Virus record (IMG/VR): IMGVR_UViG_3300008448_014404
Location: 1-24,293 of that record
Strand: one strand, 5' to 3'
DNA length: 24,293 nucleotides
Origin: a virus
The position numbers were made by a program, and so were the translations under genes. The notes under the pieces were generated by a model. The model was not told where the DNA came from, made no database searches, and saw only the letters and a list, made by a program, of their open reading frames with translations. Below, piece by piece: positions 1,589-24,293 of the stretch; position 1 is the stretch's first letter, and every line of letters starts with the position of its first letter.

Positions 1589-1594
1589 TATAAT

Positions 1595-1602
1595 TATTTA
1601 TA
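1595..1602 (-). promoter_or_regulatory. T4-type late promoter (TATAAATA)
   Basis: A perfect TATAAATA on the minus strand, 6 nt before the ATG of the fibre-like gene at 1588. The T4 late octamer is centred near -10, so the predicted start of transcription falls within about 1 nt of the start codon. There is no Shine-Dalgarno sequence in the 6-nt gap. Confidence 0.75.
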
Positions 1603-1640
1603 GTAGTTGATTTTTTTCACACTAAAATTAATTAAATTAG

Positions 1641-2498: not shown

Positions 2499-3214
2499 CA
2501 TTAATTTCATGCTCTTACAATACTCCAGAGGTAACACTAACCATGTTACGTTCTTTTTTTAAGCATCATAAAGAAACAAAAGTTCTTATCGTTGATAATT
2601 CAACTAACAACGAAACGGAAAATTTACTAAAGATATATAATGTTCCATATATTAGAAATGAAGGTGGGTTACATCTACAAAGTGTAGATATTCTATTATC
2701 AAATATAAAAACTAAATATGCATTATTAGTAGATACGGATGTAATCTTTTATAAAGATCATACATTAATTTTTGATAAATTTAAAGAAATGAAATTATCG
2801 CTATTAGGTGAAATATGTGGTGATCGTGGAGGTAAATTAATACATAATCGCGTTCATCCATGGCACTGCTTCATAGATGTAGATTCAATAAAAAATAATA
2901 ATATTAAATTTTACAACCCAGTAAAACAGTTTTCAGTAAGTGAAAAAATATATGATGTAGGTTGTACTTTTTTTGAAGACGTAAAAAATTGCAATCTTAA
3001 AATAGGTAATATAAAATTAGAAGGTAGTTACTTTAAGCATTATGAGGGAATGTCATGGCGTACAAAACGCTACGGTGTAGAAGACGGTGATATAGATCAT
3101 AGCAGTAGCGCTGTACATAATAATTTAGCTATGTATAATTATGGTCTTTACGTAGAGCAGCTATATCAAGCCGAAATTGAAAAACATAAAGATATTATTA
3201 TAAGATGCAAATAG
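2486..3214 (+). CDS. Glycosyltransferase, GT-A fold
   Basis: A 242-residue GT-A protein. It opens with ITLISCSYNTPEVTLTMLRS (residues 4-23), the beta-strand/helix start of family 2 enzymes. LIVDNST (34-40) follows, then LLVDTDVIF (80-88), which contains the DTD metal-binding motif at 83-85. The C-terminal third has the Trp/His-rich stretch HYEGMSWRTKRYG near an acidic VEDGDIDHS, plausible for acceptor binding, though unassigned. It is shorter than many family 2 enzymes and has no membrane anchor. It starts inside the previous gene (13-nt overlap) and overlaps the next by 10 nt, so translation is probably coupled. The substrate is not predictable. Confidence 0.8.
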   Translation: MEDITLISCSYNTPEVTLTMLRSFFKHHKETKVLIVDNSTNNETENLLKIYNVPYIRNEGGLHLQSVDILLSNIKTKYALLVDTDVIFYKDHTLIFDKFKEMKLSLLGEICGDRGGKLIHNRVHPWHCFIDVDSIKNNNIKFYNPVKQFSVSEKIYDVGCTFFEDVKNCNLKIGNIKLEGSYFKHYEGMSWRTKRYGVEDGDIDHSSSAVHNNLAMYNYGLYVEQLYQAEIEKHKDIIIRCK

Positions 3215-3948
3215 ACTTTTATATTGTTGTACATAGTATAAATTTAATTAATTTTTTTGAAGAAACAGAAAAATATAAAGATCTTGTAAATTATAAATAT
3301 TTGTTAGTTGGCAAGCACCACACAAATTATAGTAATAATAAAATTATCCAGTGCGATAGATTGCCTGAAAATAAAGAAGAATGTAATCATTATTTAGCCT
3401 ATACTGGATGGTACGCATTAGCTAAAAATCTACCAACTAGTAGTTCAGATTATATATGCTTTTTAGAGTATGATACTGATGTAATGCCTGGGTTTAATTT
3501 AGAAAATCTACAGAATTATATATATTCAAAAAATTTAAAATGTTACGGCTTGACATACATGCCGCTGCATGATGGTATATTTGTTAATACTCAATTCACA
3601 CACAAAACACTTTCATACCTAAAACAAAGAAATATTAAGGAAATTAAACCAAATAATCATAATTGGTTAACTACAAATAATATGTTTTTTAACAAACAAT
3701 TTCTAGTAGATTATTTTAATGACCCATTTACTACTGATTTTTTAAATTATTTAAACAATGACCCTATGTCTGGTCATTTTTTAGAACGATTCTTATCAAT
3801 ATACTGCTTTATTAACAACATTACTTTCGATATTATAGATAATAATATATTAGTACATCGCGGCTTAGACAGTCACAACACACAAAATATTTTTAATTCA
3901 GAGAGAGGATATGAACAATTTAAAGCTATTAATAAAATTCCCGACTAG
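3205..3948 (+). CDS. Putative glycosyltransferase with DxD motif
   Basis: A 247-residue protein that starts with the strand IDFYIVVHS and has FLEYDTDVMPGF (residues 86-97), with the DTD at 90-92 in the setting expected for a GT-A metal site. Later parts (HNWLTTNNMFF near 150-160, and the GHFLERFLSIY region near 190-200) resemble the C-terminal halves of small glycosyltransferases in viral and bacterial polysaccharide clusters. It lacks the classic family 2 N-terminal phrase, so the family is uncertain. A 10-nt overlap joins it to the gene before and a 38-nt overlap to the gene after. The position inside a run of sugar-transferring enzymes supports the call. It is strongly AT-rich, with many Asn, Ile and Lys codons. 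Confidence 0.65.
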   Translation: MQIDFYIVVHSINLINFFEETEKYKDLVNYKYLLVGKHHTNYSNNKIIQCDRLPENKEECNHYLAYTGWYALAKNLPTSSSDYICFLEYDTDVMPGFNLENLQNYIYSKNLKCYGLTYMPLHDGIFVNTQFTHKTLSYLKQRNIKEIKPNNHNWLTTNNMFFNKQFLVDYFNDPFTTDFLNYLNNDPMSGHFLERFLSIYCFINNITFDIIDNNILVHRGLDSHNTQNIFNSERGYEQFKAINKIPD

Positions 3949-4579
3949 AGCACGTCCAGAGAAGTTTTTTAAGGTTCTTGATCTATACTATCATCTTCTT
4001 GATGGCAATAATTTTGAGTTTGTAGTATCTTGTGATGTAGATGACGAAACAATGAATAACTCAGAAGTAAGAGCTCGTCTAAAAGCGTATAATAAACTAT
4101 CTGTTAGTTATAATAATAACACATGTAAGGTAGAAGCTATTAACGCTGATTTAAAAGATAAACAATTTGATATATTAATATTAGCATCTGATGATATGGT
4201 ACCTGAAGTAAGAGGGTATGATGTTATAATAAAAAATAAGCTTATTGCTCGCTTTCCTGATAAAGATGGTGTCTTATGGGTCAATGATGGATTTCAAGGC
4301 GATAAACTTAATACTCTCGTAATAATTGGTAAACCATACTACGATAGGTTTGGCTACATATATCATCCAGATTACAAATCCTTATATTGTGATACAGAAT
4401 TTACCTTAGTGTCGCAAATGCTAAACAAAGCATACTATTACGATAAGTGCTTGATAAGACACTGCCAGTATTCTATAATAAATGAACCACCTGATAAATT
4501 ATATGTACGTAATGATTACTTGCAGCATAAAGATCATGTAACATTTAACAGCAGGCGCAATAAAAACTTCGATTTATGA
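3911..4579 (+). CDS. Glycosyltransferase-like protein, GT-A fold
   Basis: A 222-residue protein. The opening LKLLIKFPTRARPEKFFKVL (residues 4-23) is the strand-turn-helix of GT-A enzymes that begin with a (P)TRxRP phrase. FVVSCDVDDETM (37-48) fits the nucleotide-binding strand, and ILILASDDMVPE (88-99) gives a DD pair at 94-95 in place of DxD. The middle LWVNDGFQGDKLNT is a plausible acceptor or donor loop, and a late CDTEFTLVSQ contains an acidic pair. The ATG at 3911 is 38 nt inside the previous gene; the conserved motif lies so close to it that a later start would break the fold. It ends in an ATGA overlap with the next gene. Sugar specificity is unknown. Confidence 0.7.
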   Translation: MNNLKLLIKFPTRARPEKFFKVLDLYYHLLDGNNFEFVVSCDVDDETMNNSEVRARLKAYNKLSVSYNNNTCKVEAINADLKDKQFDILILASDDMVPEVRGYDVIIKNKLIARFPDKDGVLWVNDGFQGDKLNTLVIIGKPYYDRFGYIYHPDYKSLYCDTEFTLVSQMLNKAYYYDKCLIRHCQYSIINEPPDKLYVRNDYLQHKDHVTFNSRRNKNFDL

Positions 4580-5298
4580 AAAAAATACTAATATCTTTTG
4601 CTACAAACTCAAAGTGGTATAGAGCGCAATCCTTATTAAACGAAAGTGCAAAAAAAGGAAAATTCGACGGTGTTATTAGTTATACAGACAAAGGTCGAGA
4701 ATGGGAATTTATGAAAAAATATCCTGATATTCTTTCAACAAGAGGATTTGGATACTGGCAGTGGAAGCCTTTAATAATCTTAGACGCTTTAAGCAAAGTA
4801 AATGATGGTGATATAATAGCTTATATTGATAGCGGTAATATTATTATTAATGATTTAACTTATATATTTAACGAATGTGACAAAACAGAAATAGTTTTGT
4901 TTGAGAATCGCGATGGTAACTATCAAAGACAGACGCATAAAAATAAAGAATGGACGAAAAGAGACTGCTTTATATTAATGAATTGCGATTCTGAAAAATA
5001 CTATAACGCTTCACAGGTAGATGGTTCTTATCAATTTTATAAGAAAACACCTAAGGTAATTAAATTTTTAAAGGAATATAAAGAGTATTGTTCTAATGAC
5101 AATATTATTTCTGATCTTCCTAATATTACTAAAGAAAATTTACCTGAGTATATCGATCATAGACATGATCAATCTATACTATCGTTGCTCGCTGTAAAAT
5201 ATAATATACCCCTTTTACCTGAGCCTTCTGAATGGGGAAACTATTTAGATAATAGACCATACCCTCAATTATTTCTACATCATAGAGGAACATTATGA
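4576..5298 (+). CDS. Putative glycosyltransferase (GFGYWQWKP / YIDSG type)
   Basis: A 240-residue protein with a set of phrases I recognise from glycosyltransferase-like proteins in viral and bacterial surface-glycan clusters: GFGYWQWKPLIILDAL (residues 57-72), DIIAYIDSGN (79-88), DGSYQFYKK in the middle, and HRHDQSILSLLA near the C-terminus. The YIDSG stretch probably takes the place of the DxD metal site, and the HDQS segment is a conserved catalytic-region signature. Both ends use the 4-nt ATGA overlap, so it is translationally coupled to both neighbours. No membrane segment is visible. The donor and acceptor are not predictable; the enzyme class is inferred from motif resemblance and context. 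Confidence 0.65.
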   Translation: MKKILISFATNSKWYRAQSLLNESAKKGKFDGVISYTDKGREWEFMKKYPDILSTRGFGYWQWKPLIILDALSKVNDGDIIAYIDSGNIIINDLTYIFNECDKTEIVLFENRDGNYQRQTHKNKEWTKRDCFILMNCDSEKYYNASQVDGSYQFYKKTPKVIKFLKEYKEYCSNDNIISDLPNITKENLPEYIDHRHDQSILSLLAVKYNIPLLPEPSEWGNYLDNRPYPQLFLHHRGTL

Positions 5299-6143
5299 AA
5301 TTTTTAATTATACAGGAAAATGGTAGACATGAGGTTAGTAAACATCTACGCGAGTGTAATAGTATGCAGCGTGCGTTACATTATAATAATGTTGAATGCG
5401 ATGTATGGGGTCTAGGTCACGACAATTATAATATTACTCCAAATTTTAACAGTTACGATGTTATTATAAATCTAGAAAACTATGATACAGGCTGGATGCC
5501 TTGTCTTTCAAAATACGTTAAGCCGTTAAAATTTTTATGGTCGATAGACTGTCATGTACGAGGCTATGAATACTATAAAGATGTTTTTATAAAAGGAAAA
5601 TACAATTATATATTACAATCAACAAAAGATTATTGCGATAAAAACAGTTTATGGTTTCCTAATTGTTACGACGATGATTACATTAAACCTCTTAATATTG
5701 AAAAGAAACATTTTGTAGGCTTTTGTGGCAATTATGTAAACAGAAAACCGTATTTTGATTTTTTAAACTCTAAAATGCCTTTTAAGTTAGATATCGATGT
5801 TAGAGGTAAATATATGATTGAAGCCATAAACTCCTATCACATACAGTTTAATAAAAATATAGCTAATGATATAAATTATAGAAGCTTTGAAACTACAGGA
5901 TGTAGGACTGCTTTAATGACTGATTATAATAGTCAATATGAAGAGTTAGGATTTAAAGATAGATACAATGTATTTTTCTATCGTAATATAAATGAGGCTG
6001 TTGATATACTAAATGAATTAAAGAAAATGCCCGAATTAGTAGAAAGTGTTAGCTTAGAGGGTTATAAGCTTGCTTCTAGTAAACATACTTTTAAAAATAG
6101 AGCTACGAGTTTATTGAAATTTATTAAAACCAATATAGACTAA
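5295..6143 (+). CDS. Glycosyltransferase, GT-B fold (CgeB / Glyco_trans_1_2-like)
   Basis: A 282-residue protein that looks like a compact GT-B enzyme. The N-terminal half has a Rossmann-type start (KFLIIQENG) and alternating strands and helices (WGLGHDNY, YDVIINLENYDTG, FLWSIDCHVRGYEYY). After about residue 135, HFVGFCGNYVNRKPYFDFL starts the second domain. It is followed by the donor-site stretch NIANDINYRSFETTGCRTAL, which matches the N-x-R-x-FE-x-x-x-CG pattern of Glyco_trans_1_2/CgeB-like proteins (Glu contacting the donor). The C-terminal helix with HTFKNRATSLLKFI is also typical of that family. It starts in an ATGA overlap with the previous gene and ends 5 nt before the methyltransferase. 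It should transfer an activated sugar; which one is unknown. Confidence 0.75.
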   Translation: MKFLIIQENGRHEVSKHLRECNSMQRALHYNNVECDVWGLGHDNYNITPNFNSYDVIINLENYDTGWMPCLSKYVKPLKFLWSIDCHVRGYEYYKDVFIKGKYNYILQSTKDYCDKNSLWFPNCYDDDYIKPLNIEKKHFVGFCGNYVNRKPYFDFLNSKMPFKLDIDVRGKYMIEAINSYHIQFNKNIANDINYRSFETTGCRTALMTDYNSQYEELGFKDRYNVFFYRNINEAVDILNELKKMPELVESVSLEGYKLASSKHTFKNRATSLLKFIKTNID

Positions 6144-6148
6144 GACAC

Positions 6149-6688
6149 ATGAATTTAGTAAATGTAAAAACGAGAACGGAATTACTTTCTGTATTACCTA
6201 AAGGTGGGAGGTTTTTAGAACTAGGTGTATTTAGAGGTGAGTTTGCAAAAGAGATACTTAAAAAAACCTCCCCGGAAGAACTATATCTAGTAGATATATG
6301 GGAGGGAGAAATGGGATCAGGTGATAAAGATGGAGATAATTATGTTAAAGTTCAAGATATGCAAAATATATATCTCAGTCTTTTTCATCAGACTAAAACT
6401 AAAAATAATATCTTTGTAGTTCGTAGTGATTCTACATCTTTTTTAAAATCATGTGAAGAAAATTATTTTGATTCAATTTATGTTGATGCAGATCATTCTG
6501 AAGAAGCGGTTTATAACGATATGGTAAACTCTTTTAGAGTTATAAAAGCTGGAGGTTATCTAATGGGACACGACTACCACCATCAAATTAAGACTGCAGT
6601 AGATAAATTTTGCGTTGATTATAATCAAAATATAATTCATGTAACTGAAGACGGCTGTCCTACATTTTTAATAATAGCAAATAAATGA
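6149..6688 (+). CDS. Class I SAM-dependent methyltransferase (Methyltransf_24-like)
   Basis: A 179-residue protein with a standard Rossmann methyltransferase core. Motif I, FLELGVFRGEFAKEI (residues 22-36), binds the SAM methionine part. LYLVDIW (45-51) ends strand 2 with the acidic residue that holds the ribose. VVRSDS is motif III-like, and FDSIYVDADHSEEAVYNDM carries the post-motif Asp and His. GGYLMGHDYHHQIKTAVDKF is the strand 5 to helix E region seen in Methyltransf_24 and TylF-like O-methyltransferases. In a sugar cluster it most likely methylates a glycan hydroxyl or a related small group, but the substrate is inferred only from context. It lies 5 nt behind the GT-B gene and ends in an ATGA overlap with the next glycosyltransferase. 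Length is near the minimum for this family. Confidence 0.85.
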   Translation: MNLVNVKTRTELLSVLPKGGRFLELGVFRGEFAKEILKKTSPEELYLVDIWEGEMGSGDKDGDNYVKVQDMQNIYLSLFHQTKTKNNIFVVRSDSTSFLKSCEENYFDSIYVDADHSEEAVYNDMVNSFRVIKAGGYLMGHDYHHQIKTAVDKFCVDYNQNIIHVTEDGCPTFLIIANK

Positions 6689-7632
6689 AAGTAGTAGCTT
6701 TTCACTCAAACGAATTAAACGAGCGTGGGACAAATGTCGCTATGTATGACTATGCGCACTACAATGAGGCTATTTTAGGCAACAAGTCATATATTATATC
6801 TAATAAGAATGCAGATCTGACTGCTCTGATTAAATTTCAGGATCGATTTGAAGTTTTTTTATATAATGACTTTAATGAATGTACTGAATTTTGTGCGCAG
6901 AAAAATATACAATATGTTTATTATGTAAAAGCTGGGGATCAAGACGGTAAAATTATACCTAATTGCAAATCATGTATACACGCAGTATTTCAACATCGTG
7001 ATGAACACGGAGATGCCTATGCTTATATTTCACAGTGGCTAGCTCAACGAATGTCATTGCCAAACAATTATGTACCCTACATGGTTGATATGCCTCCAGC
7101 AAAACAGAGCTATAGATCTAAACTTAATATTCCTGAACAAGCCATTGTTATAGGTCGTCATGGCGGTTATTCCGAGTTTGATTTACCTTTTGTTCATAGA
7201 GCTATTTCTAAAGTTTTAGAAAGGCGTAATGATATCTACTTCGTGTTTATGAATACTAGACCTTTCATGAAAAAGCACCCCAATGTTATTCATGTTGAAG
7301 GGACTTTTAATATGCAGCATAAAGCAAACTATATTACTACTTGCGATTATATGCTACATGCTAGATATATGGGAGAGAGTTTCGGGTTGGCACTATCTGA
7401 GTTTCTGTTTCAAGGCAAACCTGTGATAAGCTGGGTAGGTGGTCAAGATCAAAATCATAGAGAGATACTACAAGACAGGGGTATATGGTATGAGGGTGAA
7501 AAAGACTTAATTGATATACTTGATAATTTACAAAAACAAAATAAAGGCGAATATTATTACAAGGAGTTAGTTCAGGAGTTCACACCAGACAAAGTAATGG
7601 ATAAATTTAACAAAATGTTTTTAAGTGTATGA
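6685..7632 (+). CDS. Glycosyltransferase family 4-like (GT-B)
   Basis: A 315-residue GT-B enzyme. The N-terminal domain includes LNERGTNVAMYDYAHY (residues 11-26), the stretch that normally binds the acceptor. Domain 2 begins with VIGRHGGYSEFDLPFVHRAI (155-174) and contains the donor-site signature ARYMGESFGLALSEFLFQG. In this signature Glu231 and Glu239 form the E-x7-E pair of family 4 enzymes. FVFMNTRPF and VIHVEGTF are the usual strands between the two. It should use a nucleotide-sugar donor with retention of configuration, as is typical of family 4; acceptor and sugar are unknown. ATGA overlaps at both ends tie it to the methyltransferase before and the DxD protein after. Soluble, no membrane segment seen. 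Confidence 0.85.
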   Translation: MKVVAFHSNELNERGTNVAMYDYAHYNEAILGNKSYIISNKNADLTALIKFQDRFEVFLYNDFNECTEFCAQKNIQYVYYVKAGDQDGKIIPNCKSCIHAVFQHRDEHGDAYAYISQWLAQRMSLPNNYVPYMVDMPPAKQSYRSKLNIPEQAIVIGRHGGYSEFDLPFVHRAISKVLERRNDIYFVFMNTRPFMKKHPNVIHVEGTFNMQHKANYITTCDYMLHARYMGESFGLALSEFLFQGKPVISWVGGQDQNHREILQDRGIWYEGEKDLIDILDNLQKQNKGEYYYKELVQEFTPDKVMDKFNKMFLSV

Positions 7633-8447
7633 AAATTGATAAAGTAATTTTTTCTTCATCTGAAGAGTATAGTGATTTTTGGAATATAAATTCTAAAATT
7701 TTTAAAACGAAGTTTGGATTTGATTGTGTCTGCTTGTTTTTTGGAGATAGATCTAAAACCAATATTAGTGAAGAGTACGGAAAGGTAATCGATTTTAAAT
7801 TTATTGAAACATTACCAAAAGTTCTTCAAATAACATGGAGTAAGTTTTACTACACTGCTCTAGAACCAGAAACTACGTGGATGATTGGCGATATAGACCA
7901 GCTACCCTTGAATAAATTTTGGTTTACAGACAATATTAGTGGTATACCCGAAGACCACTATATCCATTTAAACGCTACAGCTTGCGCTGAAAATAGACAA
8001 ATGCCGTATGATAGTTGGTTGCATGGATTATGCGATGTACCTGCGCATTATCATGTTGCTAAAGGAAAAACTTTTGCAGAGTTTTTAGATCTAGAAGGAA
8101 CTCTAGAAGAACAAGTTAAGCGAATTATTTTTAATAAAATAGGGGATAATAATAAATTAGATGAAATTACTGACCCTACTACCTTTTTCTGGTGTGATGA
8201 AGAGAGAACTTCAACAAAAAGTCTTTTAAGTAGACTACATACAAAAAAGATCCACTCTTTTGGTTATAACAATACTTTACAAAAAATATGTAGAAGTAGA
8301 TATGATTACAGTAAAGATAATTACATATATTGCCCAGAAAAACTTAAAGCGCAGAAGTATATAGATATCCACTGTGAACGACCATACCAAAAAACAAAGT
8401 CTCAAATAGAAGAAATTTTAAATATAGCATGGAGTACTAGTGTATGA
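7629..8447 (+). CDS. Putative glycosyltransferase with DID motif
   Basis: A 272-residue protein whose family I cannot name with certainty. ETTWMIGDIDQLPL (residues 81-94) has a D-I-D triplet after a hydrophobic strand, in the context of a GT-A metal-binding DxD site (compare SDIDMLPL-type phrases). The middle has a Cys/His-containing segment, NATACAENRQMPYDSWLHGL, then HYHVAKGKTF, often seen where GT-A proteins bind the donor diphosphate. The second half contains FFWCDEERTSTKSLL and a C-terminal IDIHCERPYQK, both conserved-looking and unassigned. It is linked by ATGA overlaps to the family 4 enzyme before it and the GDPD-like gene after it. A role in the same glycan pathway is an inference from motif and position. 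Confidence 0.5.
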   Translation: MKIDKVIFSSSEEYSDFWNINSKIFKTKFGFDCVCLFFGDRSKTNISEEYGKVIDFKFIETLPKVLQITWSKFYYTALEPETTWMIGDIDQLPLNKFWFTDNISGIPEDHYIHLNATACAENRQMPYDSWLHGLCDVPAHYHVAKGKTFAEFLDLEGTLEEQVKRIIFNKIGDNNKLDEITDPTTFFWCDEERTSTKSLLSRLHTKKIHSFGYNNTLQKICRSRYDYSKDNYIYCPEKLKAQKYIDIHCERPYQKTKSQIEEILNIAWSTSV

Positions 8448-8932
8448 CAAAAATAATATCACACAGAGCAAATCTTAACGGTCCGGCTAGCGACGAGAAT
8501 ACTCTCGGTAGTATACTTAGGTGCTTGCAAGAATACAATTTTGATGTTGAGATAGATGTATGGGTTCTAGATAATTTAATACACATAGGTCATGATCTAC
8601 CGTCAAAATTTATTCTGGATATCCAGAGTTTTTTATTTAAATTTATACAGTATAAAGATAGAATATGGTTGCATTGTAAAAACATAGAAGCAGCAGTCCT
8701 GTTCTCAGCACTTGATATTGGATTTAATTTTTTTGGTCATAGTAGCGATGAGTTTGTTCTAACATCAAAAGGGTTTATTTTTACTAAACCTGATGTTGTA
8801 AACAAAAATGCAATAGTGGTTATGCCAGAGTTAGTTAGTTCGAAAATAGAAGAAGCTTATTTTAATACGAAAGGTATATTAACAGATTACCCAATACAAT
8901 ATGAAGCATATTATAATACTATCAGGTCATAG
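8444..8932 (+). CDS. Compact GDPD / PI-PLC-fold phosphodiesterase-like protein
   Basis: A 162-residue protein with the active-site pattern of the glycerophosphodiester phosphodiesterase superfamily. It has SHRAN at residues 6-10 (catalytic His7 and Arg8), ENT at 18-20, EIDVW at 36-40 (metal-binding Glu36 and Asp38) and IGHD at 48-51 (second His, His50). DRIWLHCKN would be the strand equivalent to the substrate-lysine strand, and GILTDYP the last barrel strand. It is much shorter than typical GDPDs (about 250 residues), so several barrel elements must be minimal. In polysaccharide clusters such proteins may cut or form a phosphodiester-linked substituent; that role is inferred. It begins in an ATGA overlap and its end overlaps the nucleotidyltransferase by 32 nt. 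Confidence 0.65.
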   Translation: MTKIISHRANLNGPASDENTLGSILRCLQEYNFDVEIDVWVLDNLIHIGHDLPSKFILDIQSFLFKFIQYKDRIWLHCKNIEAAVLFSALDIGFNFFGHSSDEFVLTSKGFIFTKPDVVNKNAIVVMPELVSSKIEEAYFNTKGILTDYPIQYEAYYNTIRS

Positions 8933-9713
8933 TCAAAGATTTTTAGATCAAGGGTATACAATAAAACCTTTAATAAAAATAGGCGATAAGCCAATTATCG
9001 AATATGTAACTAATACACTTAATCTAACAAGTTTTGAAAATGTAACATTTATTATTAAGCGAGAAGATGTAGATGACTATAATCTAGAAAACTATCTAAG
9101 AGAAAAATTTACTAATTGTGCAATTTCAATTATCGAAGGTCATAGACTAGGGCCTGTATACTCGGTTCTACAGTCTAACTGCATATCAGATAAAGATGAA
9201 ACTCTAGTAACATATTGCGATCTTCATATTAATTGGAATATCCAAGAGTTCTATATCCACATAAAAAAACTAAATGTTGATGGGTGTATAGTTACACACA
9301 CTGGGTGGCATCCTCATCGTATATATAATAAGTATTTCGCATATCTACGGGTGGATAAAGATCAAGTTCTAGAAATTAAAGAAAAGCAACACTTTACAGA
9401 TAATCCAGAAAATGAATACGCTTCAGGTGGTATATATTATTTTAAAACAGGTTCAATGCTTAAAAAATATTGCGAAGAACTTATAGAAAGAAATGAAAGA
9501 GTTAACAATGAGTTTTATATAACAATGCTCTATAATTTAATGATAGAAGATAATCTCAAAGTGACGCACTTTGATTCTAAGAACTACGTTTGCTTAGGTA
9601 CACCAAAAGATGTAGAATTATTTGATGCGTTTTATAAAATACATAATCATCTTAATAATACTGCTGATGCAATAAACGCATTAAATTATTTCAACAATAA
9701 AATTTTTAAATAA
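8901..9713 (+). CDS. Sugar-phosphate nucleotidyltransferase-like protein
   Basis: A 270-residue protein of the NTP_transferase type. It opens MKHIIILSGHSQRF, in the place of the nucleotide-binding G-x-G-x-R loop, then KPLIKIGDKPIIEYV (residues 22-36) with the conserved Lys and the IGDKPIIEYV phrase. TYCDLHINW stands where the metal-binding Asp normally occurs, and YASGGIYYFKTGSML matches the sugar-pocket strand of this family. Such enzymes join a sugar 1-phosphate to an NTP to make the activated sugar used by glycosyltransferases, which fits the cluster. The glycine loop departs from the classic GGxGxR, so activity could be altered. The start is set by the first strand and lies 32 nt inside the GDPD-like gene. 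It is the last intact gene of the cluster. Confidence 0.75.
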   Translation: MKHIIILSGHSQRFLDQGYTIKPLIKIGDKPIIEYVTNTLNLTSFENVTFIIKREDVDDYNLENYLREKFTNCAISIIEGHRLGPVYSVLQSNCISDKDETLVTYCDLHINWNIQEFYIHIKKLNVDGCIVTHTGWHPHRIYNKYFAYLRVDKDQVLEIKEKQHFTDNPENEYASGGIYYFKTGSMLKKYCEELIERNERVNNEFYITMLYNLMIEDNLKVTHFDSKNYVCLGTPKDVELFDAFYKIHNHLNNTADAINALNYFNNKIFK

Positions 9714-10853: not shown

Positions 10854-11288
10854 ATGAGAGCTAGCATTGATCAAATTACACCAACGAGAAGCTTAATTGA
10901 TTTATCGTCGCATTCAGAAGGAGATTTTGGTATTCGAGATTATGAATTAAGTTTTATATTCGACGACATTCTTCTTGTTGAGTATATAGATACTACGAAT
11001 GAAGGTGATGGGGTTATAAGAAACGGTATATATGTCCCTACAAACGCGCTAACCAAAGCGTGGAGAAAAGCTCGGGTTATTTTAGCCGGTCCAGATGCAA
11101 AATACACTAAAGTTGGTGATATTGTAATATTCCCAAACAACTTAGGAATAACAGTTTCAAATATTGATATTGAAAATGTAGGTTCAATAAAAAATGGTAT
11201 TTTCTTAAACGAAAATAGAATATTTGGAATTTGTAAACCAAAAAATAAAAATGATATCGAAGGAGAGCTTAGAGCAGAAACTGCTTAA
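10854..11288 (+). CDS. 31: GroES-like co-chaperonin (gp31-like)
   Basis: A 144-residue protein containing a GroES/gp31-type domain from about residue 32 onward. FIFDDILLVEY (34-44) is the first strand. DTTNEGDGVIRNGIYVPTNA (46-65) occupies the place of the mobile loop that docks on GroEL. KARVILAGPDAKYTKVGDIV and a late ENRIFGICKP match the barrel strands and the C-terminal strand. The first 30 residues are an extra N-terminal part, so it is longer than GroES (about 97) or T4 gp31 (111). In T4, gp31 replaces GroES on host GroEL to allow folding of the major capsid protein; the same job is likely for the gp23 encoded later in this window. Its 3' end overlaps the next gene. Confidence 0.8.
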   Translation: MRASIDQITPTRSLIDLSSHSEGDFGIRDYELSFIFDDILLVEYIDTTNEGDGVIRNGIYVPTNALTKAWRKARVILAGPDAKYTKVGDIVIFPNNLGITVSNIDIENVGSIKNGIFLNENRIFGICKPKNKNDIEGELRAETA

Positions 11289-11625
11289 TAGCGTTGTAGA
11301 TCTACGCTTTGTAAGAAGAATTCCTGTACCAGGACGACCAGCTACACGTAGAATGCTATGCACAAAATCATCATCTCTCCTAAACTCAACAAATGGAAGA
11401 ATGTCTCTAAACTACAGGCCTCCTATGAGTGGCAAGAGATTTAATGAAACAACAGAAAATGCAGTTATCGTATGGGATATATTTATGCAGGACTTTAGAG
11501 TTGTATCTTTAGAGGGTGCAATGATTTTGAATGAAATTCCTGCAAATGATGAATTTTGGCAATACTATAATAAAGCATTACTACCTATGACAGCTGAACA
11601 AAAACTTCAATTTATGAACTCATGA
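11251..11625 (+). CDS. DUF2693-like small protein
   Basis: A 124-residue protein if started at the ATG at 11251, 38 nt inside the co-chaperonin gene. A TTG at 11224 would add 9 residues but has no better ribosome site. The purine-rich AAGGAGAG at 11260-11267 falls after the ATG, so the start is not certain. The phrases VDLRFVRRIPVPGRPATRRM, with LCTKS after it, and later ENAVIVWDIFMQDFRVVSLE resemble DUF2693. In that family a basic N-terminal strand pair recurs with a VWD...WR-type strand, probably an SH3-like barrel. The role of the family is unknown. The end shares the ATGA overlap with the next small gene. Confidence 0.5.
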   Translation: MISKESLEQKLLNSVVDLRFVRRIPVPGRPATRRMLCTKSSSLLNSTNGRMSLNYRPPMSGKRFNETTENAVIVWDIFMQDFRVVSLEGAMILNEIPANDEFWQYYNKALLPMTAEQKLQFMNS

Positions 11626-11987: not shown

Positions 11988-13625
11988 ATGTTTAATAACC
12001 TCCTCGAAGGATTTCCAGATAAGTTTACACCAAATACGCAACAGTTAAAGCTACTTAAAAACATAGATCAAGCCTTTGAGGATGGCTATAAGTTTGTTGT
12101 ATGTGCTGCACCTACAGGCTCTGGCAAGTCCTTCATTTCAAAAACTCTCGGTAATGTAAGCAATACACCTTCCGATAGTTATACAGATCTTGTAATGAGC
12201 TATCTTGCATACAAGAGAACGCAGATGGGCGCTTACATGTATGAAGATGAATGTCAGGATCAATCACCGTTCGGAGCATTTGCACTGACTATAACAAAGT
12301 CACTACAAGATCAGTATAAGGAATTGTTTCCTGATGTCGATGTACTGAAAGGTAAATCAAACTATCAGTGTGAGGTTGATCAAAACTTTACTGTAGAGAG
12401 TGGTCCCTGTCTACACTCTTCTAAGTTAAAAGAAGAGTGTTGGTCAAAAAATAGATGTCCGTATTACGAAGCAAGAAATAAAGCTCTCGTTTCAACGTTT
12501 TCTACTCTAAATTATAACATGTTTTTTGCCTTACCTAAGCACCTCAAAAAGCGTAAGTATCTTATTTGCGATGAAGCCTCAGAGCTAGAAGATCAAATTG
12601 TTAAAGAGTTTTCAATTAAATTAAATTTTGACTTTCTCAAAAAATGTGAAATTGCCATTAGTCCTTTTCCACAAAACGATTACGGTAAAGTAGGAAGATG
12701 GTTGGCACATATTTCTATTTCTATTAATGATAGGTTAGAAGACCTAAAAAATATAATAAGCAATAGCAAGCACGCTTCACCTATATTCTTAGCTGATAAG
12801 AGAGCAGAGCTATTATCATTAAAAAATATACATAATAAAATATCCGCAATTACATCTACGTGGTGTGATAGTGAGTATATATATGAAAGAGAAACGAATG
12901 GTATCTCTTTTACACCGCTTAAGGTTAATAATTTAGCAAATCATCTTTTCGATAACGGTGAAAAGATAATATTAATGTCTGCTACTATTATCGACCCTAC
13001 AAATTTTTGTAAAACGCTAGGTATAACAAAATTTAAATATATAGAAGCTGAATCAACCTTTGATTCTACAAAAGCGCCTATTTACGTTCAAACTAAATTA
13101 AAACTAAATCATAGCAACTTACAGAAAAATCTAAACAAAATTGCAAAGCAGGTGGAAGATATCTGCAATCTTCATTCGCAAGATAAAGGTATTATACATA
13201 CTCACTCTAACTATATAACAGAATATCTAAAGACGAATATTTCTAATAAAAGAATTTTGTTTAGAGAGCCTGGAGTTAACAACGAACAACTTATATCTCA
13301 ACACTCTCTATCCAGTGAACCTACAATATTAGCATCACCGTCTATGTCGCACGGTATAGACCTCAAGGATGATTTAGCTAGATTTCAAATTATAATCAAA
13401 GCACCTTATCTACCTTTAGTAGACAAAAGAGTAGAGCGTATGATGAAGTTAGATTTCAACTGGTATCTTAATAAAATGTTAAGTTCTCTAATCCAGAGTT
13501 GCGGTAGAGGAGTAAGATCTCATAAAGATCATTGCATAACATACATCCTCGATGGCGCTGTAATTGAACAGGTTATTAAGAATAAGCATAAGCTACCAAA
13601 ATACTTTATAGATAGATTTGTTTAA
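11988..13625 (+). CDS. DinG/XPD-like superfamily 2 helicase with Fe-S cysteines
   Basis: A 545-residue DNA helicase of the XPD/DinG branch. Walker A is APTGSGKS (residues 41-48) and motif II is DEAS (195-198, in place of DEAH). Four cysteines, C128, C141, C151 and C157, lie between motifs I and II in the arrangement that holds the 4Fe-4S cluster of this branch, followed by YYEARNKALVSTFSTLNYN, typical of DinG. Motif III is MSATI near 330, motif V is ASPSMSHGIDL, and motif VI is QSCGRGVRS (503-511). Such enzymes unwind DNA 5' to 3' and can act on R-loops or D-loops. Here it could help replication or recombination, but its exact task is unknown. It is not the usual T4 helicase (gp41, Dda or UvsW). 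Its stop lies within the late promoter of gp15. Confidence 0.85.
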   Translation: MFNNLLEGFPDKFTPNTQQLKLLKNIDQAFEDGYKFVVCAAPTGSGKSFISKTLGNVSNTPSDSYTDLVMSYLAYKRTQMGAYMYEDECQDQSPFGAFALTITKSLQDQYKELFPDVDVLKGKSNYQCEVDQNFTVESGPCLHSSKLKEECWSKNRCPYYEARNKALVSTFSTLNYNMFFALPKHLKKRKYLICDEASELEDQIVKEFSIKLNFDFLKKCEIAISPFPQNDYGKVGRWLAHISISINDRLEDLKNIISNSKHASPIFLADKRAELLSLKNIHNKISAITSTWCDSEYIYERETNGISFTPLKVNNLANHLFDNGEKIILMSATIIDPTNFCKTLGITKFKYIEAESTFDSTKAPIYVQTKLKLNHSNLQKNLNKIAKQVEDICNLHSQDKGIIHTHSNYITEYLKTNISNKRILFREPGVNNEQLISQHSLSSEPTILASPSMSHGIDLKDDLARFQIIIKAPYLPLVDKRVERMMKLDFNWYLNKMLSSLIQSCGRGVRSHKDHCITYILDGAVIEQVIKNKHKLPKYFIDRFV

Positions 13626-13631
13626 TAAATA
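13624..13631 (+). promoter_or_regulatory. Late-type promoter before gp15 (AATAAATA)
   Basis: AATAAATA at 13624-13631 has one mismatch to the T4 late octamer and overlaps the helicase stop codon. Unlike the other late promoters of the window it is 16 nt from the likely start codon, and a strong GAGGAGG ribosome site sits in between. It marks the beginning of the late block. Confidence 0.5.
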
Positions 13632-13635
13632 TATA

Positions 13636-13642
13636 GAGGAGG
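13636..13642 (+). promoter_or_regulatory. Strong ribosome site (GAGGAGG) before an ATT start
   Basis: GAGGAGG at 13636-13642 is the best Shine-Dalgarno match in this part of the window. It is followed after 5 nt by an in-frame ATT at 13648. No in-frame ATG, GTG or TTG lies at a usable distance, so this site decides the start of the gp15 homologue. Confidence 0.55.
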
Positions 13643-13647
13643 TTGCT

Positions 13648-14751
13648 ATTAAAGATTATACATACAATTTTGAAATAAAGGATTTAATTACTCAGTTTAT
13701 AGCGGCGTTTGACGATGTTGTTATAAAAAGGTATGATAATAATCGCGTAGCTAAAGAAGATATTGAGGTAAGATATGTTTTAGCTCCGAAACAGCGTGTA
13801 ATGTATGATATTGTCAATAAAGCTCAAAACCTTACCCTACCTGTAGTCGCTGTTGATATTGCCTCTATTAGTAGAGCTAATGATAGAGTTTTTAATAAAA
13901 TTGATAATTTTTACACTCCGTATACTAGAAATAAAACCAGCAATGTTAAAATGCCTATTCCGATCGACATTACTATTAATATGTCAATTCTAGCTAGGTA
14001 TATGCAGGACATAGATCAAATTTTATCTAATTTTATACCATATAGTAATCCTTATATAATATTATCCTGGAAGGAGCCATCTCAAATAGAAGGTCAGGTT
14101 GTAGAAATAAGAAGCGAAGTTCTCTGGAATGGTAATATATCGTTCAATGCTCCTACCGATACAACATATAACGATAAGTTTAGAGTAGTGTGTGATACAT
14201 CGTTTACTATAAAAGGATGGCTATTTAAAAATAAAAACGAATTATCAACTCCTATATATTTTATTGATGTTAATACCTACGCGATAGGTAGAACAGATAC
14301 TCTCTCATATGAATCATTATCTGGATTAGATCTAACAGGCGCAGAAGACTCCTACACTTTATCCGCTCTACCTACAATAACTAATATATTTTACTCAAAT
14401 ACAGGATCAAAACTTCCGGTAAAGGAAAATATTACTCTTAGTAAGGCTGCTCCGTTTACAAATGATTTTGTTTTCTATGGTACTAACTATAATTTTGTAG
14501 ATTGTGTTTTACTTAGTGCTAATAATACAGTAACTACTAACTATACGCTCACTACTCTAGAGACAAAATATACAGGAAGCGTTACGGGATTTATATTACC
14601 TACTTCTTCTTATTCTATCATAACAAACGACGTATTAGCAGTTAATATACCATACCTGAGCGGATCTGGTAGTATAGATATTATTGTTAATAACCCAGCG
14701 GGATGGACTACATCTCATAGTTTATCTGGCTTTACTTTTGAAGTACATTGA
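13648..14751 (+). CDS. 15: Tail sheath stabiliser/completion protein (gp15-like)
   Basis: A 367-residue protein if begun at the ATT at 13648. The T4 gp15 pattern is clear. YTYNFEIKDLITQFIAAFDD, then VVIKR, lines up without gaps with the N-terminus of T4 gp15 as I recall it (Y-x-YN ... IKR), placing this ATT at the position of gp15 Met1. PIPIDITINMSILARYMQDI and LSNFIPYSNPY match the gp15 core, and VCDTSFTIKGWLF its second domain. gp15 caps the finished tail tube and sheath and provides the joint to the head neck. About 120 extra C-terminal residues look like an Ig-type (IPT/TIG-like) beta domain, making it longer than T4 gp15 (272). A TTG at 13618, inside the helicase gene, is the only common alternative start and has no ribosome site. 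Confidence 0.75.
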   Translation: MKDYTYNFEIKDLITQFIAAFDDVVIKRYDNNRVAKEDIEVRYVLAPKQRVMYDIVNKAQNLTLPVVAVDIASISRANDRVFNKIDNFYTPYTRNKTSNVKMPIPIDITINMSILARYMQDIDQILSNFIPYSNPYIILSWKEPSQIEGQVVEIRSEVLWNGNISFNAPTDTTYNDKFRVVCDTSFTIKGWLFKNKNELSTPIYFIDVNTYAIGRTDTLSYESLSGLDLTGAEDSYTLSALPTITNIFYSNTGSKLPVKENITLSKAAPFTNDFVFYGTNYNFVDCVLLSANNTVTTNYTLTTLETKYTGSVTGFILPTSSYSIITNDVLAVNIPYLSGSGSIDIIVNNPAGWTTSHSLSGFTFEVH

Positions 14752-14767
14752 TTAAATATATAATAAA

Positions 14768-16591
14768 ATGGCTGATACAACACCAAATAATAATAGCAGT
14801 TACGTAACCAATAACGGAAAAACCTCTACATTTGGTAGAAATCTTGTATCCTATATTCAGAACAAACTACCTTATTCTAATATAGTAGATCCTAATAACG
14901 AGCAGCTTAACCCAAAATATAGTATATTTGCAAAGACTGGATTAAGAAGATCAGAAGCCTTAGCCCGACAGTCAATATCTATCTCTAATGAATATAATAA
15001 TATTCCTATAGGGTCAATGGGTAAAGATACCACGTTTGGTGATGTGATGTATGCAAATATTCAAGAGAATAAAGATGCTAGATTAAGAGATTATAGAATA
15101 ATGTCTGCTTACTCAGAAGTAGCAGATGCTTTAGATGAGATTTGTGATGAAACTATAAACCCAGATGAAAATTCGAATATAGCTCATTTAAATTTTAGAA
15201 ACATCGATTTAACACCTTCTGAAAAAGATACACTTGATACTGAATTTAATAAATACGTTGAATTCTATGATCTAAAAAATAGAGGATGGCAGTATTTTAG
15301 GCAGTTAATGATTGAAGGTGAACTGTTTTTTGAACAGATTATACACAAGGATTATTTAGATGAGGGTGTCTTAGGAGTAATTAACTTACCCGCTGAGCTA
15401 ATAGACCCGGTATATAACAACATTCAAAATATGATGGTTAAAGGGTTTATCTATAGAAAACCTATATTTGACCCCATACATCCGTCAAAAGTCGTTAAAA
15501 CAGAGTTAATACCACTAGACGAGAATCAAGTTGTCTATGTTAACTCAGGCGTAATGAATGAAAGTAAGACGATGGTTGTTCCATTTTTGGAGAACGCGAG
15601 ACGCGCATATAGACAGCTATCGTTAATAGAAGATGCAATTGTTATCTACAGACTCGTTAGAGCTCCAGAAAGATTAGTTTTTAATGTCGATGTAGGTAAT
15701 ATGCCGGCGCCTAAAGCTGAAGCTTATCTCCGTAAATTAATACAAAATTACTGGTCATCAAAAACATTTGATATAGATCAAAATGACGTGGTTAAAAAAT
15801 TCAATCCACAGTCAATGCTAGATGCATTCTGGTTCGCAAAAAGACAAGGTCAAGAAGGTACTACAGTCAGCCAGCTTGCTGGAGGTCAAAATCTTGGTGA
15901 ATTATCTGACTTGATGTATTTTATAAAGAAACTATATAGATCACTTAAAGTACCTACTTCAAGACTAGATCCGCAAGATGCCTTTAGAGATGGAGCGGAA
16001 ATTCTAAGAGAAGAATTAAAGTTTGCAAGATTTATTATTAGACAACAGCAACGATTCTCAGTTGGAATAAAAAGAGGATTTATTACCCATCTTAAATTTA
16101 AAGGATTATGGGATAAGTATGATCTTAAAGACATGAATATAGAAGTAGAGCTTAATGTACCTACTAATTTTTATGAAATGAGAGAAAATCAACGATTAGA
16201 ACTAAAATCAAGAAATTACACAACCCTTGCCGGAAGTGAGTTTATCTCCGCTACATACGCGCAGAAAAAGTATCTTGGATGGAAAGATAAGGATATACTT
16301 GCAAATAGAGAGTTTATGCGCAAAGATAAAGAAATGCAGTGGGAATTAGTTCAAATTGAGACTAATGGTCCCAGCTGGAAAGAGATTGCAGTAGCGGGAG
16401 CGCTAGGCGGTGGAGCACCAGAAGCGGGAGGAGGTGCTATGGGAGGTGAAGCTGGCGGTGGTATCCCGGCATTTGGCGGAGGTCCTGCTGAAGTTGGCGG
16501 TGAAGGTGCAGGGGTAGGAGAATCACCAGAGGGTGCTCCAGCTGAACCTACCGCAACTCCAAGTGAAGGTGCTCCAGCACCCATACAATAA
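14768..16591 (+). CDS. 20: Portal vertex protein (gp20)
   Basis: A 607-residue portal protein. Typical T4-family phrases occur in order: DVMYANIQENKDARLRDYRI near residues 92-111, EVADALDEICDETI (about 117-130), GELFFEQI, RLVRAPERLVFNVDVGNMP (about 295-313), then AFRDGAEILREELKFARFI. Twelve copies should form the DNA entry channel at one capsid vertex, start capsid assembly, dock the terminase and later bind the neck. It is about 80 residues longer than T4 gp20 (524). Residues from about 540 to the end are a Gly/Ala/Pro/Glu-rich low-complexity tail. An AT-rich variant of the late octamer, ATTAAATA at 14751-14758, lies 9 nt before the ATG, with no Shine-Dalgarno. Confidence 0.93.
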   Translation: MADTTPNNNSSYVTNNGKTSTFGRNLVSYIQNKLPYSNIVDPNNEQLNPKYSIFAKTGLRRSEALARQSISISNEYNNIPIGSMGKDTTFGDVMYANIQENKDARLRDYRIMSAYSEVADALDEICDETINPDENSNIAHLNFRNIDLTPSEKDTLDTEFNKYVEFYDLKNRGWQYFRQLMIEGELFFEQIIHKDYLDEGVLGVINLPAELIDPVYNNIQNMMVKGFIYRKPIFDPIHPSKVVKTELIPLDENQVVYVNSGVMNESKTMVVPFLENARRAYRQLSLIEDAIVIYRLVRAPERLVFNVDVGNMPAPKAEAYLRKLIQNYWSSKTFDIDQNDVVKKFNPQSMLDAFWFAKRQGQEGTTVSQLAGGQNLGELSDLMYFIKKLYRSLKVPTSRLDPQDAFRDGAEILREELKFARFIIRQQQRFSVGIKRGFITHLKFKGLWDKYDLKDMNIEVELNVPTNFYEMRENQRLELKSRNYTTLAGSEFISATYAQKKYLGWKDKDILANREFMRKDKEMQWELVQIETNGPSWKEIAVAGALGGGAPEAGGGAMGGEAGGGIPAFGGGPAEVGGEGAGVGESPEGAPAEPTATPSEGAPAPIQ

Positions 16592-22307: not shown

Positions 22308-24293
22308 TTATCCTGTTACTGCCCAGCCTTTTAATAGTGCTGTACCTGTTTTCAATTGCCTAAATGTCAATGTGGTTGCCCCGTTTGCTGCCATTGGTCG
22401 TGAGACGACTATGCTCGTATTAGGAGTAATTGATACAATTTCAGTTCGGTGTCTCAATGTACCAGAACCTGTTCCAGTTAATGTCAATGCAACGCCGCCC
22501 GGTACTGCTGCTACTTGAAATGATCCCGACGCAGCGTTAACCACATAGTATATTGTGTTAGTCACGATACCTGTTGTTGTTACTATAGTTGCAAATGATA
22601 CCTCGTCACCGTTGCTTAGCCCGTGGTTAGTGATAGTTACAGTACTACCGGTGGTAAATGTAACAGCTCTCGCCGTGGTTAACGGAGAATTTGTACCAGT
22701 AATCTGCATACCTGTCTCTAAGCCTGTTGTATTTGCCATAGTTATCGTAGTACTACTTGCAGTTGTCGTAGCTGCCAAACTTACCACAGTCGGCGCTCCC
22801 CAGTTATTACTAATCGTTAATGTCTGACTTGCCGCACCTATAGTGCTTAAATTAGTAAATATAGATTCTAACTCTTCTTTGGATAACTTACATCCGCTAT
22901 AAGATATAGAGAATCGTGTTCCACTTAATGCGCCTCGCGTAAGTGAAGTGCATGCATTAAAGGTATTAGTAAAGTTACCAGATGTAACTGATGATGCATT
23001 AAGTAACGGTACTGTAGTGAGTGCAGAGCAACTGTTAAACATCTGAGCCATAGTTGTAACTTTAGAGGTATCAAGATACGGTATAGATACGAGTTGGTTA
23101 CATGCCTGAAACATCAAAGACATATCCGTAACATTTGAAGTATCAAATAATGGTACAGCTACAAGTGAATAACAACTGTTAAACATCTGAGTCATAGACG
23201 TTACTACTGATGTATTAAACAGCGGTACAGATTTGAGTGAAAGGCAGTTAACAAACATGTTAACCATAGTTGTAACCTTCGAGGTATCGAACAACGGTAC
23301 AGATGTGAGTGAAGTACAGCCATTAAACATAAACCCCATATTTGTAACTGACGATGTATCGAACAATGGTACAGATGTAATTGTAGTACAGCCATTAAAC
23401 ATGCTAACCATATTTGTAACTTTTGATGTATTAAATAGCGGTACAGATGTAATTGAAATACAGCCAAAAAGCATATTGCTCATACTCGTAACATTTGAGG
23501 TATCGAACAACGGTACAGAAGTGAGTGAACGGCAGTTATAAAACATAGCACCCATATTTGTAACTGACGATGTATCGAACAATGGTATAGATGTGAGTGA
23601 ATTACAATCTCTAAGCATTTGAGACATATCTGTAACTTTTGATGTATTAAATAGCGGTACAGATGTAATTGAAGTACAGCCCAAAAACATATTGCTCATA
23701 CTCGTAACATTTGAGGTATCGAACAATGGTACAGATGTGAGTGAATTACAGGCAAAAAGCATACTGCTCATACTCGTAACCTTCGAGGTATCGAACAATG
23801 GTACAGATGTGAGTGAATTACAGTTAGAAAACATGCTACCCATACTTGTAACCGACGATGTGTCAAACAACGGTACAGATATGAGCGAGCGACAGTTAGC
23901 AAACATGCTACCTGTGCTGGTAATTATAGCAGTAGTATAAAGATTTGACACCAGTTTTAATGCAGTTAAATGTTGAAATATACTGGTAAAATTAGTAATT
24001 ATCCCCATGTTAACACCCGAAAAATGAACGAGACTTTTACAAAAAACTCCTGTAACGGTTGCAAGACCTAAAGATATACTCGTTAAGTTTGGGCAAGAAA
24101 ATATAATTTCTAATATCGGAGACGAATTAGGAAACGTAGAACCATCGATTGCATATGGTTGATTAAAGTTAACACTCGTTAAATTTTGGCCAGCTTGTGG
24201 AGTAATAACAACGACTGCCATTTTATAACCATCGCTAGTCACAGTGGCGTTTAAATCTGGATCAGCATAGTCATAGGAGTGTTGCGCTTTGAC
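22308..24293 (-). CDS. BspA-like leucine-rich-repeat fibre/adhesin, 5' end outside the window
   Basis: The frame is open from the right edge to a TAA at 22308 (661 codons visible). A GTG at 24242 and an ATG at 24221 are possible internal starts, but the 17 codons before the GTG read like protein (SYDYADPDLNAT), so the gene probably begins outside. After about 120 residues come thirteen repeats of about 24 residues, of the form SLTSVPLFDTSKVTSMSSMF, ending in x-x-C-N. This is the BspA-like/DUF285 repeat of bacterial and protist surface proteins. The C-terminal 200 residues have two beta modules: an ITMANTTGLETGMQITGT part, interrupted by a TNHGLSNGDEVSF...IYYVVN module of the kind common in phage tail proteins. 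It is probably a receptor-binding tail fibre or adhesin. The gene order suggests transcription with the 55-residue protein. Confidence 0.8.
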   Translation of the reverse strand, partial: VKAQHSYDYADPDLNATVTSDGYKMAVVVITPQAGQNLTSVNFNQPYAIDGSTFPNSSPILEIIFSCPNLTSISLGLATVTGVFCKSLVHFSGVNMGIITNFTSIFQHLTALKLVSNLYTTAIITSTGSMFANCRSLISVPLFDTSSVTSMGSMFSNCNSLTSVPLFDTSKVTSMSSMLFACNSLTSVPLFDTSNVTSMSNMFLGCTSITSVPLFNTSKVTDMSQMLRDCNSLTSIPLFDTSSVTNMGAMFYNCRSLTSVPLFDTSNVTSMSNMLFGCISITSVPLFNTSKVTNMVSMFNGCTTITSVPLFDTSSVTNMGFMFNGCTSLTSVPLFDTSKVTTMVNMFVNCLSLKSVPLFNTSVVTSMTQMFNSCYSLVAVPLFDTSNVTDMSLMFQACNQLVSIPYLDTSKVTTMAQMFNSCSALTTVPLLNASSVTSGNFTNTFNACTSLTRGALSGTRFSISYSGCKLSKEELESIFTNLSTIGAASQTLTISNNWGAPTVVSLAATTTASSTTITMANTTGLETGMQITGTNSPLTTARAVTFTTGSTVTITNHGLSNGDEVSFATIVTTTGIVTNTIYYVVNAASGSFQVAAVPGGVALTLTGTGSGTLRHRTEIVSITPNTSIVVSRPMAANGATTLTFRQLKTGTALLKGWAVTG
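22947..23888 (-). repeat. Thirteen tandem LRR-coding units of 72 bp (last one 78 bp)
   Basis: Twelve 72-bp units (23025-23888) plus a degenerate 78-bp unit (22947-23024) encode the DUF285 repeats. Units share long DNA stretches, such as the reverse complement of GTATCGAACAATGGTACAGA. Each unit varies mainly in the last third, before the conserved Cys. Units 3-5 (23529-23744) and 6-8 (23313-23528) form a longer 216-bp duplication. Confidence 0.9.

Follow-up and report, generated by a model that had tools for sequence, protein, structure and literature searches.

The rare start codons AUU, AUC and AUA have, on comparative sequence evidence, evolved repeatedly at gene 15 (gp15) in one clade of T4-like phages. 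The window, i.e. the whole stretch of 24,293 nucleotides that was analysed, is a metagenomic contig in which, by comparison with relatives, gp15 very probably begins with the ATT at position 13648. The carrier is an uncultured T4-like phage of aquatic bacteria. Its nearest isolates are remote: among the matches listed, identity to cyanophages is below 25 % for gp15 and about 33 % for gp23, and scans of genome contigs with gp15 and gp20 found no relative. The relevant features of the window are:

11988 to 13625, plus strand: helicase gene upstream of gp15 (PHROG 2488, E 4.8e-94), with its stop 22 nt before the ATT.
13618 to 13620, plus strand: TTG, the sole canonical in-frame codon upstream, rejected as start; an in-frame TAG lies downstream of it in L001, L002 and L041, the three closest related loci.
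13624 to 13631, plus strand: T4-type late promoter box AATAAATA; the mRNA start is predicted near 13637 from T4 numbering (accessible part of PMC2988020).
13636 to 13642, plus strand: Shine-Dalgarno (SD) sequence GAGGAGG, its last G 5 nt before the ATT; with the next base, AGGAGGT gives a 7-nt anti-SD match.
13648 to 13650, plus strand: predicted ATT start codon of gp15; relatives have ATG, GTG, TTG, ATC or ATA at the homologous codon.
13648 to 14751, plus strand: gp15, tail sheath stabiliser, 367 aa from the ATT (PF16724, PHROG 227), start predicted by homology.
14768 to 16591, plus strand: gp20 portal gene (PF07230), downstream neighbour and control, with ATG in 91 of 91 members.

The identity of the gene is clear from profile searches. 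The protein matches PF16724 (E 8.8e-20, 71.3 bits against a cut-off of 25, profile positions 1-209 of 245), which places it in the tail sheath stabiliser family, and also PHROG 227 (E 7.9e-20). The gene stands among T4-type structural genes, being followed by gp20, a head-tail adaptor, gp4, gp21 and gp23; in T4, gp14 lies upstream of gp15, whereas in the window the helicase gene takes this place. About a dozen genes upstream of the structural genes (1641-9713, plus strand) resemble, by eye, glycosyltransferases, a methyltransferase and other sugar enzymes. A GroES-like co-chaperonin gene (10854-11288, plus strand; PHROG 3188, E 4.1e-05) is conserved near the helicase gene and gp15. The TTG start listed for the frame 11224-11625 (plus strand) is probably wrong, as relatives begin at ATG 11251. 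A DUF285-repeat protein of 644 aa (22308-24242, minus strand; PF03382, E 2.8e-55) has a GTG start at the contig edge.

A sequence-only reading of this DNA had proposed that gp15 starts at an AUU 5 nt after a GAGGAGG, in a frame with no well-placed common start. Both observations hold: GAGGAGG (13636-13642) is followed by ttgct (13643-13647) and the ATT, and the sole NTG of the frame 13612-14751 before the conserved core is TTG 13618, inside the helicase open reading frame (ORF). The proposed AUU start is itself supported by the relatives, most of which have ATG, GTG or TTG at exactly that codon, the replacement for which it had been suggested to look, and conserved sequence extends upstream of it in none of them, as expected of a true start. 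The reading had also proposed a gap-free match to the N-terminus of T4 gp15. Position 1 of the PF16724 profile aligns with residue 4 of the ATT-started protein (the Y of IKDY) and T4 gp15 begins ATG TTT GGT TAT (MFGY); the two proteins are therefore equal in N-terminal length. The next in-frame ATG of the window gene is codon 52, within the invariant core. Neither the recurrence of such starts across a clade nor the adjacent late promoter had been part of the sequence-only reading.

A start at TTG 13618 in the end of the helicase gene, coupled to the helicase stop and adding ten residues, would suit the window on its own. This codon is in frame and open there, as it is in the L003 type, and it is the start reported by an ORF listing restricted to common starts. 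However, the TAG in frame between the TTG and the ATT makes such a start impossible in L001, L002 and L041, the homologues begin at the ATT codon, and the TTG has no ribosome site before it. The lack of a usable canonical in-frame start, which follows from homology in the window, is directly visible in 15 of the 18 stretches with an ATH start (ATT, ATC or ATA), as these have no canonical upstream codon. We therefore consider the TTG start very improbable. Frameshifting or read-through from the helicase gene was ruled out, since that gene is read in a different frame and every ATH stretch has in-frame stops before the start codon. Although the window is a metagenomic contig, a sequencing or assembly error or a broken gene is practically excluded as the source of the ATT, because the same codon class returns across many samples and lineages and the gp15 gene is complete and evolves under purifying selection.

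When IMG/VR was scanned with the protein as guide, 41 related loci were found, 40 of which contain the gp15 N-terminus. The homologous codon is ATT in L001, L002 and L041, ATC in L003, L004 and L040, and ATA in L037, the rest having GTG or ATG. Wider scans, one of them represented by the best 80 of 574, added up to 109 anchored sequences (ATG 47, GTG 27, TTG 21, ATC 8, ATT 4, ATA 2). Twelve loci were not anchored by the regular expression; eleven of these begin with M, V or L by tblastn, and L011 is without the N-terminus. In each of the 148 distinct sequences examined, the homologous codon was NTG or ATH; in this set protein-guided matches are merged with codon-targeted scans, so that ATH is over-represented relative to nature. 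For the tree the set was reduced to 145 by dropping the L041 fragment and by the loss of two rows with a short protein or a short upstream stretch. These 145 sequences have GTG (56), ATG (48), TTG (23), ATT (8), ATC (6) and ATA (4), i.e. a weak codon (GTG, TTG or ATH) in 97. Among the relatives, the order of genes is rearranged in L037, where gp20 (471-2270, minus strand) sits upstream of the gp15 with the ATA start and is encoded on the other strand. The gp15 of L092 has an in-frame stop within the conserved TQF motif (near 2221), and that of L050 a frame break (near 3669).

The range of codons accepted at this position was also determined with a DNA pattern for the conserved N-terminus. When any first codon ending in A, C or T was allowed, 2.9 million IMG/VR contigs gave 18 stretches, all with ATT, ATC or ATA and identical to the 18 from the ATH scan. 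Pattern scans of IMG/VR for codons ending in G gave at least 120 stretches with NTG; a scan for CTG gave none, and one for AAG, ACG or AGG gave none. Within the codons scanned (all those ending in A, C or T, and NTG, AAG, ACG and AGG) the gp15 start position tolerates only ATG, GTG, TTG and ATH. In cultured T4-like phages gp15 starts with ATG in seven of seven (T4, HTVC008M, Syn19, P-SSM2, Cr30, RHph_I1_18 and SynMITS9220M01).

A gp15 tree was built from the 145 distinct sequences with the start residue left out. ATH and NTG were exchanged at least nine times on this tree, at least five of these on well-supported branches; an earlier tree with L041 included had 10 such changes. In comparison with close relatives, purifying selection on gp15 begins at the ATT codon. 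Over the first 30 codons from the ATT, the window differs from L002 by nine synonymous and no non-synonymous changes, and from L001 by 15 synonymous and one non-synonymous change, and the region upstream, when read as coding, contains a stop in both L001 and L002.

As controls, open frames from every locus were sorted into families, and a modal start column was determined for each family. The 193-aa and gp21 families, in which the modal column is an internal Met, were left out, and the start column of gp4 was unreliable. No ATH starts were found in the 14 informative control families: an NTG lay at most six codons from the modal start column in 663 of the 668 members whose N-terminus is present. 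The five exceptions were the GroES-like protein of L007 and the gp22-like protein of L232 (Met just outside the six-codon range), two members of a 102aa family (L275 and L239, with a longer N-terminus) and gp23 of L268 (an internal fragment), none of which resembles an ATH start. In the same survey, 18 of the 128 gp15 members whose N-terminus is present were ATH with no NTG within six codons; a nineteenth case (L038) was misaligned and has GTG. The helicase family (e.g. window 11988), with a GTG start in 62 of 93 relatives, is the only other mostly non-ATG-start family here with more than 20 members.

Upstream of gp15, 140 of the 145 sequences have a late box NNTAAATA, in most cases AATAAATA. 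In T4, according to the accessible text of PMC2988020, the late box is a TATA box of 8 bp whose numbering starts at -13, roughly one helical turn upstream of the point where the mRNA begins. By this numbering, a distance of 5 nt between box end and start codon puts the codon at +1. The distance is 5 nt in all six ATC sequences (the L081 and L003 types), so that ATC is the predicted +1 there, and 5-6 nt in 39 of the 56 GTG sequences. It is mostly 9 nt for TTG and 11 nt in roughly half of the ATG sequences. For ATT and the SD-bearing ATA starts it is 16-28 nt, with 16 nt in the window.

Short box distances are not confined to gp15. The window and 13 related records together have 649 predicted genes, a few of which may be counted twice where pieces overlap. 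Among these genes the box lies 5 nt before ATG in 61 cases and 6 nt in 34, compared to 0 and 4 in the reverse-complement control. Examples are found in the window at 16600, 18211, 18882 and 21669 (plus strand) and 1588 (minus strand), and in L258-L293; in relatives, the GroES-like gene often has the box 5 nt before its ATG. In the T4 stretch there was no box at 5-6 nt and most were 17-28 nt from the start, and HTVC008M, P-SSM2 and Syn19 had one box at 5-6 nt in all three together. From the sharp peak at 5-6 nt, the late mRNAs of this clade appear to be leaderless or nearly so. The window gp15 appears to be an exception, with a short predicted leader that carries an SD.

A strong ribosome site is unusual in this setting. 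The gp15 site is the only one with an anti-SD match of at least 6 nt among the 28 gene starts checked in the window, and an SD of at least 5 nt was found in 17 of the 649 genes over 14 records (again with possible double counting of a few genes in overlapping pieces), compared to 17 of 44 in the T4 stretch, 15 of 53 in HTVC008M, 7 of 42 in P-SSM2 and 2 of 33 in Syn19. At gp15, a strong SD (at least 5 nt of anti-SD complement) precedes 9 of the 12 ATT or ATA starts, none of the six ATC starts and none of the 127 NTG starts, although the tree-aware test of this link, with only three supported independent pairs, was underpowered. Since three ATT or ATA starts (L124, L137 and L274) and all ATC starts are without a strong SD, compensation by the SD is not general. 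Two layouts of gp15 can thus be predicted from sequence, one with ATT or ATA and mostly a strong SD, and one with ATC placed exactly at the predicted late mRNA start. Four folds of the gp15 site gave no masking RNA structure better than shuffles, and the window contained no Rfam match.

We propose that gp15 of the window would be translated from AUU 13648, read by the ordinary initiator fMet-tRNA. By T4 spacing, transcription from the late box at 13624-13631 would begin near 13637, giving a late transcript with an 11-nt leader that begins AGGAGG, and the SD would position the 30S subunit so that AUU occupies the P site. In the clade as a whole, gp15 keeps a weak start while neighbours such as gp20 use ATG; the weak start may hold a low-copy tail protein at a low level, with the SD added back in the window lineage. 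A longer leader and a strong SD may offset the weaker codon in the ATT and most ATA lineages, and the start codons of the ATC lineage and of one ATA lineage would lie at or beside the predicted mRNA 5' end without an SD. This explanation as a whole, i.e. an SD-led AUU start kept weak for a low dose, is likely to be right, whereas for dose tuning as the purpose of the weak start the case is evenly poised. In T4, gp15 is a low-copy tail part. Dose tuning is favoured because of this, because known AUU or AUA starts with a strong SD give about a tenth of the AUG yield, and because initiation factor IF3 represses such codons. In Staphylococcus aureus, AUU or AUA with a strong SD yields about 10 % of AUG in cvfC1, ccpN and citZ, as given in the accessible part of PMC13009471.

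A more far-reaching reading, which we put forward tentatively, is that most late transcripts of the clade are leaderless, their start codons lying no more than one or two bases from the mRNA 5' end, that the ribosome accepts AUC or AUA as the first codon of such an mRNA, and that 5'-terminal near-cognate, SD-led AUU or AUA and canonical starts have been swapped many times at gp15. If true, natural leaderless initiation would tolerate changes in the third base of the start codon, and the ribosomes or initiation factors of the hosts would differ in behaviour from their E. coli counterparts. Rules drawn from E. coli account least well for the ATC group, without SD or predicted leader.

It is also possible, though unlikely, that the ATH start does more than keep gp15 low and, as in infC and sigR, makes it respond to IF3 or the state of the ribosomes late in infection; the sequence-only reading had likewise pointed to initiation-factor levels. 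IF3 represses ATH and GTC starts in known cases (available text of PMC5472188), and in E. coli it represses leaderless translation and reinitiation as well (available text of PMC2268962). However, most relatives have GTG, ATG or TTG at this codon, which would not be sensed by IF3 in the same way, and a phage IF3 gene was found in none of 20 related records, probably all partial. Equally doubtful is translational coupling, in which ribosomes leaving the helicase gene would reinitiate at gp15 and the identity of the codon would matter little. In nearly all sequences a long upstream frame does end about 2 to 35 nt from the start of gp15, the distance being 22 nt in the window group, but the late promoter is placed between the two genes or overlaps them, so that the late mRNA would lack the helicase. 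In addition, the gp15 codon is still confined to NTG and ATH, and reinitiation in E. coli prefers canonical codons and an SD, as far as the accessible part of PMC2268962 describes it.

If the host ribosomes ignore SD sequences, the gp15 SD would need another explanation than the one we prefer. With a Bacteroidota-like host, whose ribosomes disregard SD sequences except when they lack bS21, SD and AUU might restrict gp15 during infection to bS21-poor ribosomes, as for host rpsU. The rarity of the SD in the clade (17 of 649 genes), with gp15 as the lone strong exception in the window, would fit this, and in Flavobacterium johnsoniae such an SD occurs on rpsU only (accessible part of PMC9976891). 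We regard it as improbable, however, as bS21 was found in none of 21 related records, probably all partial, leaderless mRNAs also explain the rarity of the SD, and the rpsU SD is longer, with pairing below -13 kcal/mol. An unusual tRNA as the explanation was rejected on the pieces scanned. There was none in the window or in the loci of five relatives scanned alongside, and none of the seven tRNA genes predicted in 36 pieces (Tyr, Gln, Pro, Asn, Ile-TAT and Arg, one gene being counted twice in an overlap) was initiator-like; the Ile-TAT gene is on a record whose gp15 starts with ATG (L110, the same as G011).

ATH starts as such are already known (infC, pcnB, T4 26', cvfC1, ccpN), and near-cognate starts have otherwise been described gene by gene. 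Our search of the open-access literature on phage AUU and near-cognate starts, infC and IF3 found no report of ATH starts in phage gp15. As far as this literature shows, three things are new: that ATH has evolved repeatedly at a single phage gene, that codon and layout are linked, and that the late layout is leaderless. Here the start of one orthologous gene in one phage clade covers AUG and five of the nine codons that differ from it by one base. It has switched among them repeatedly, and the layout of the ribosome site is tied to codon class. The clade is thus a natural experiment on the trade-off between SD strength, leader length and start codon, and its ATC group, with no SD at a predicted mRNA end, makes the limits of leaderless initiation directly testable. 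Gene callers limited to ATG, GTG and TTG would miss or misplace such starts, as when the common-start ORF listing gave TTG 13618.

Among known systems, infC shares the ATH start, which is ATT in E. coli, ATC in Streptomyces (accessible part of PMC5472188) and AUA in S. aureus (accessible part of PMC13009471); infC is autoregulated by its own product, whereas gp15 is a tail protein. In cvfC1, ccpN, citZ and pcnB the weak ATH codon limits expression, as we propose for gp15; the available text of PMC13009471 gives cvfC1 and ccpN a strong, extended SD and covers pcnB by the title of a reference. These are cellular genes, and the non-canonical start is kept in the two which that text describes as conserved. 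Streptomyces sigR likewise combines a strong ribosome site with a non-canonical start that is conserved, being GTC in 32 of 34 species and GTT in two, but its codon lies outside the ATH class and repression by IF3 was shown there, according to the accessible part of PMC5472188. The gp15 gene differs from the cellular ATH genes in that its codon has switched at least nine times and half of its ATH starts are without a strong SD. T4 26' (baseplate hub) is, like gp15, a T4-type late structural gene with an ATT start, annotated with ATT AAA as its first codons; its AUU start was reportedly described in 1992. In 26', however, the ATT lies inside a gene that has an ATG start as well and serves as its second start, whereas in gp15 the ATH codon is the sole start of the full-length protein and recurs across a clade.
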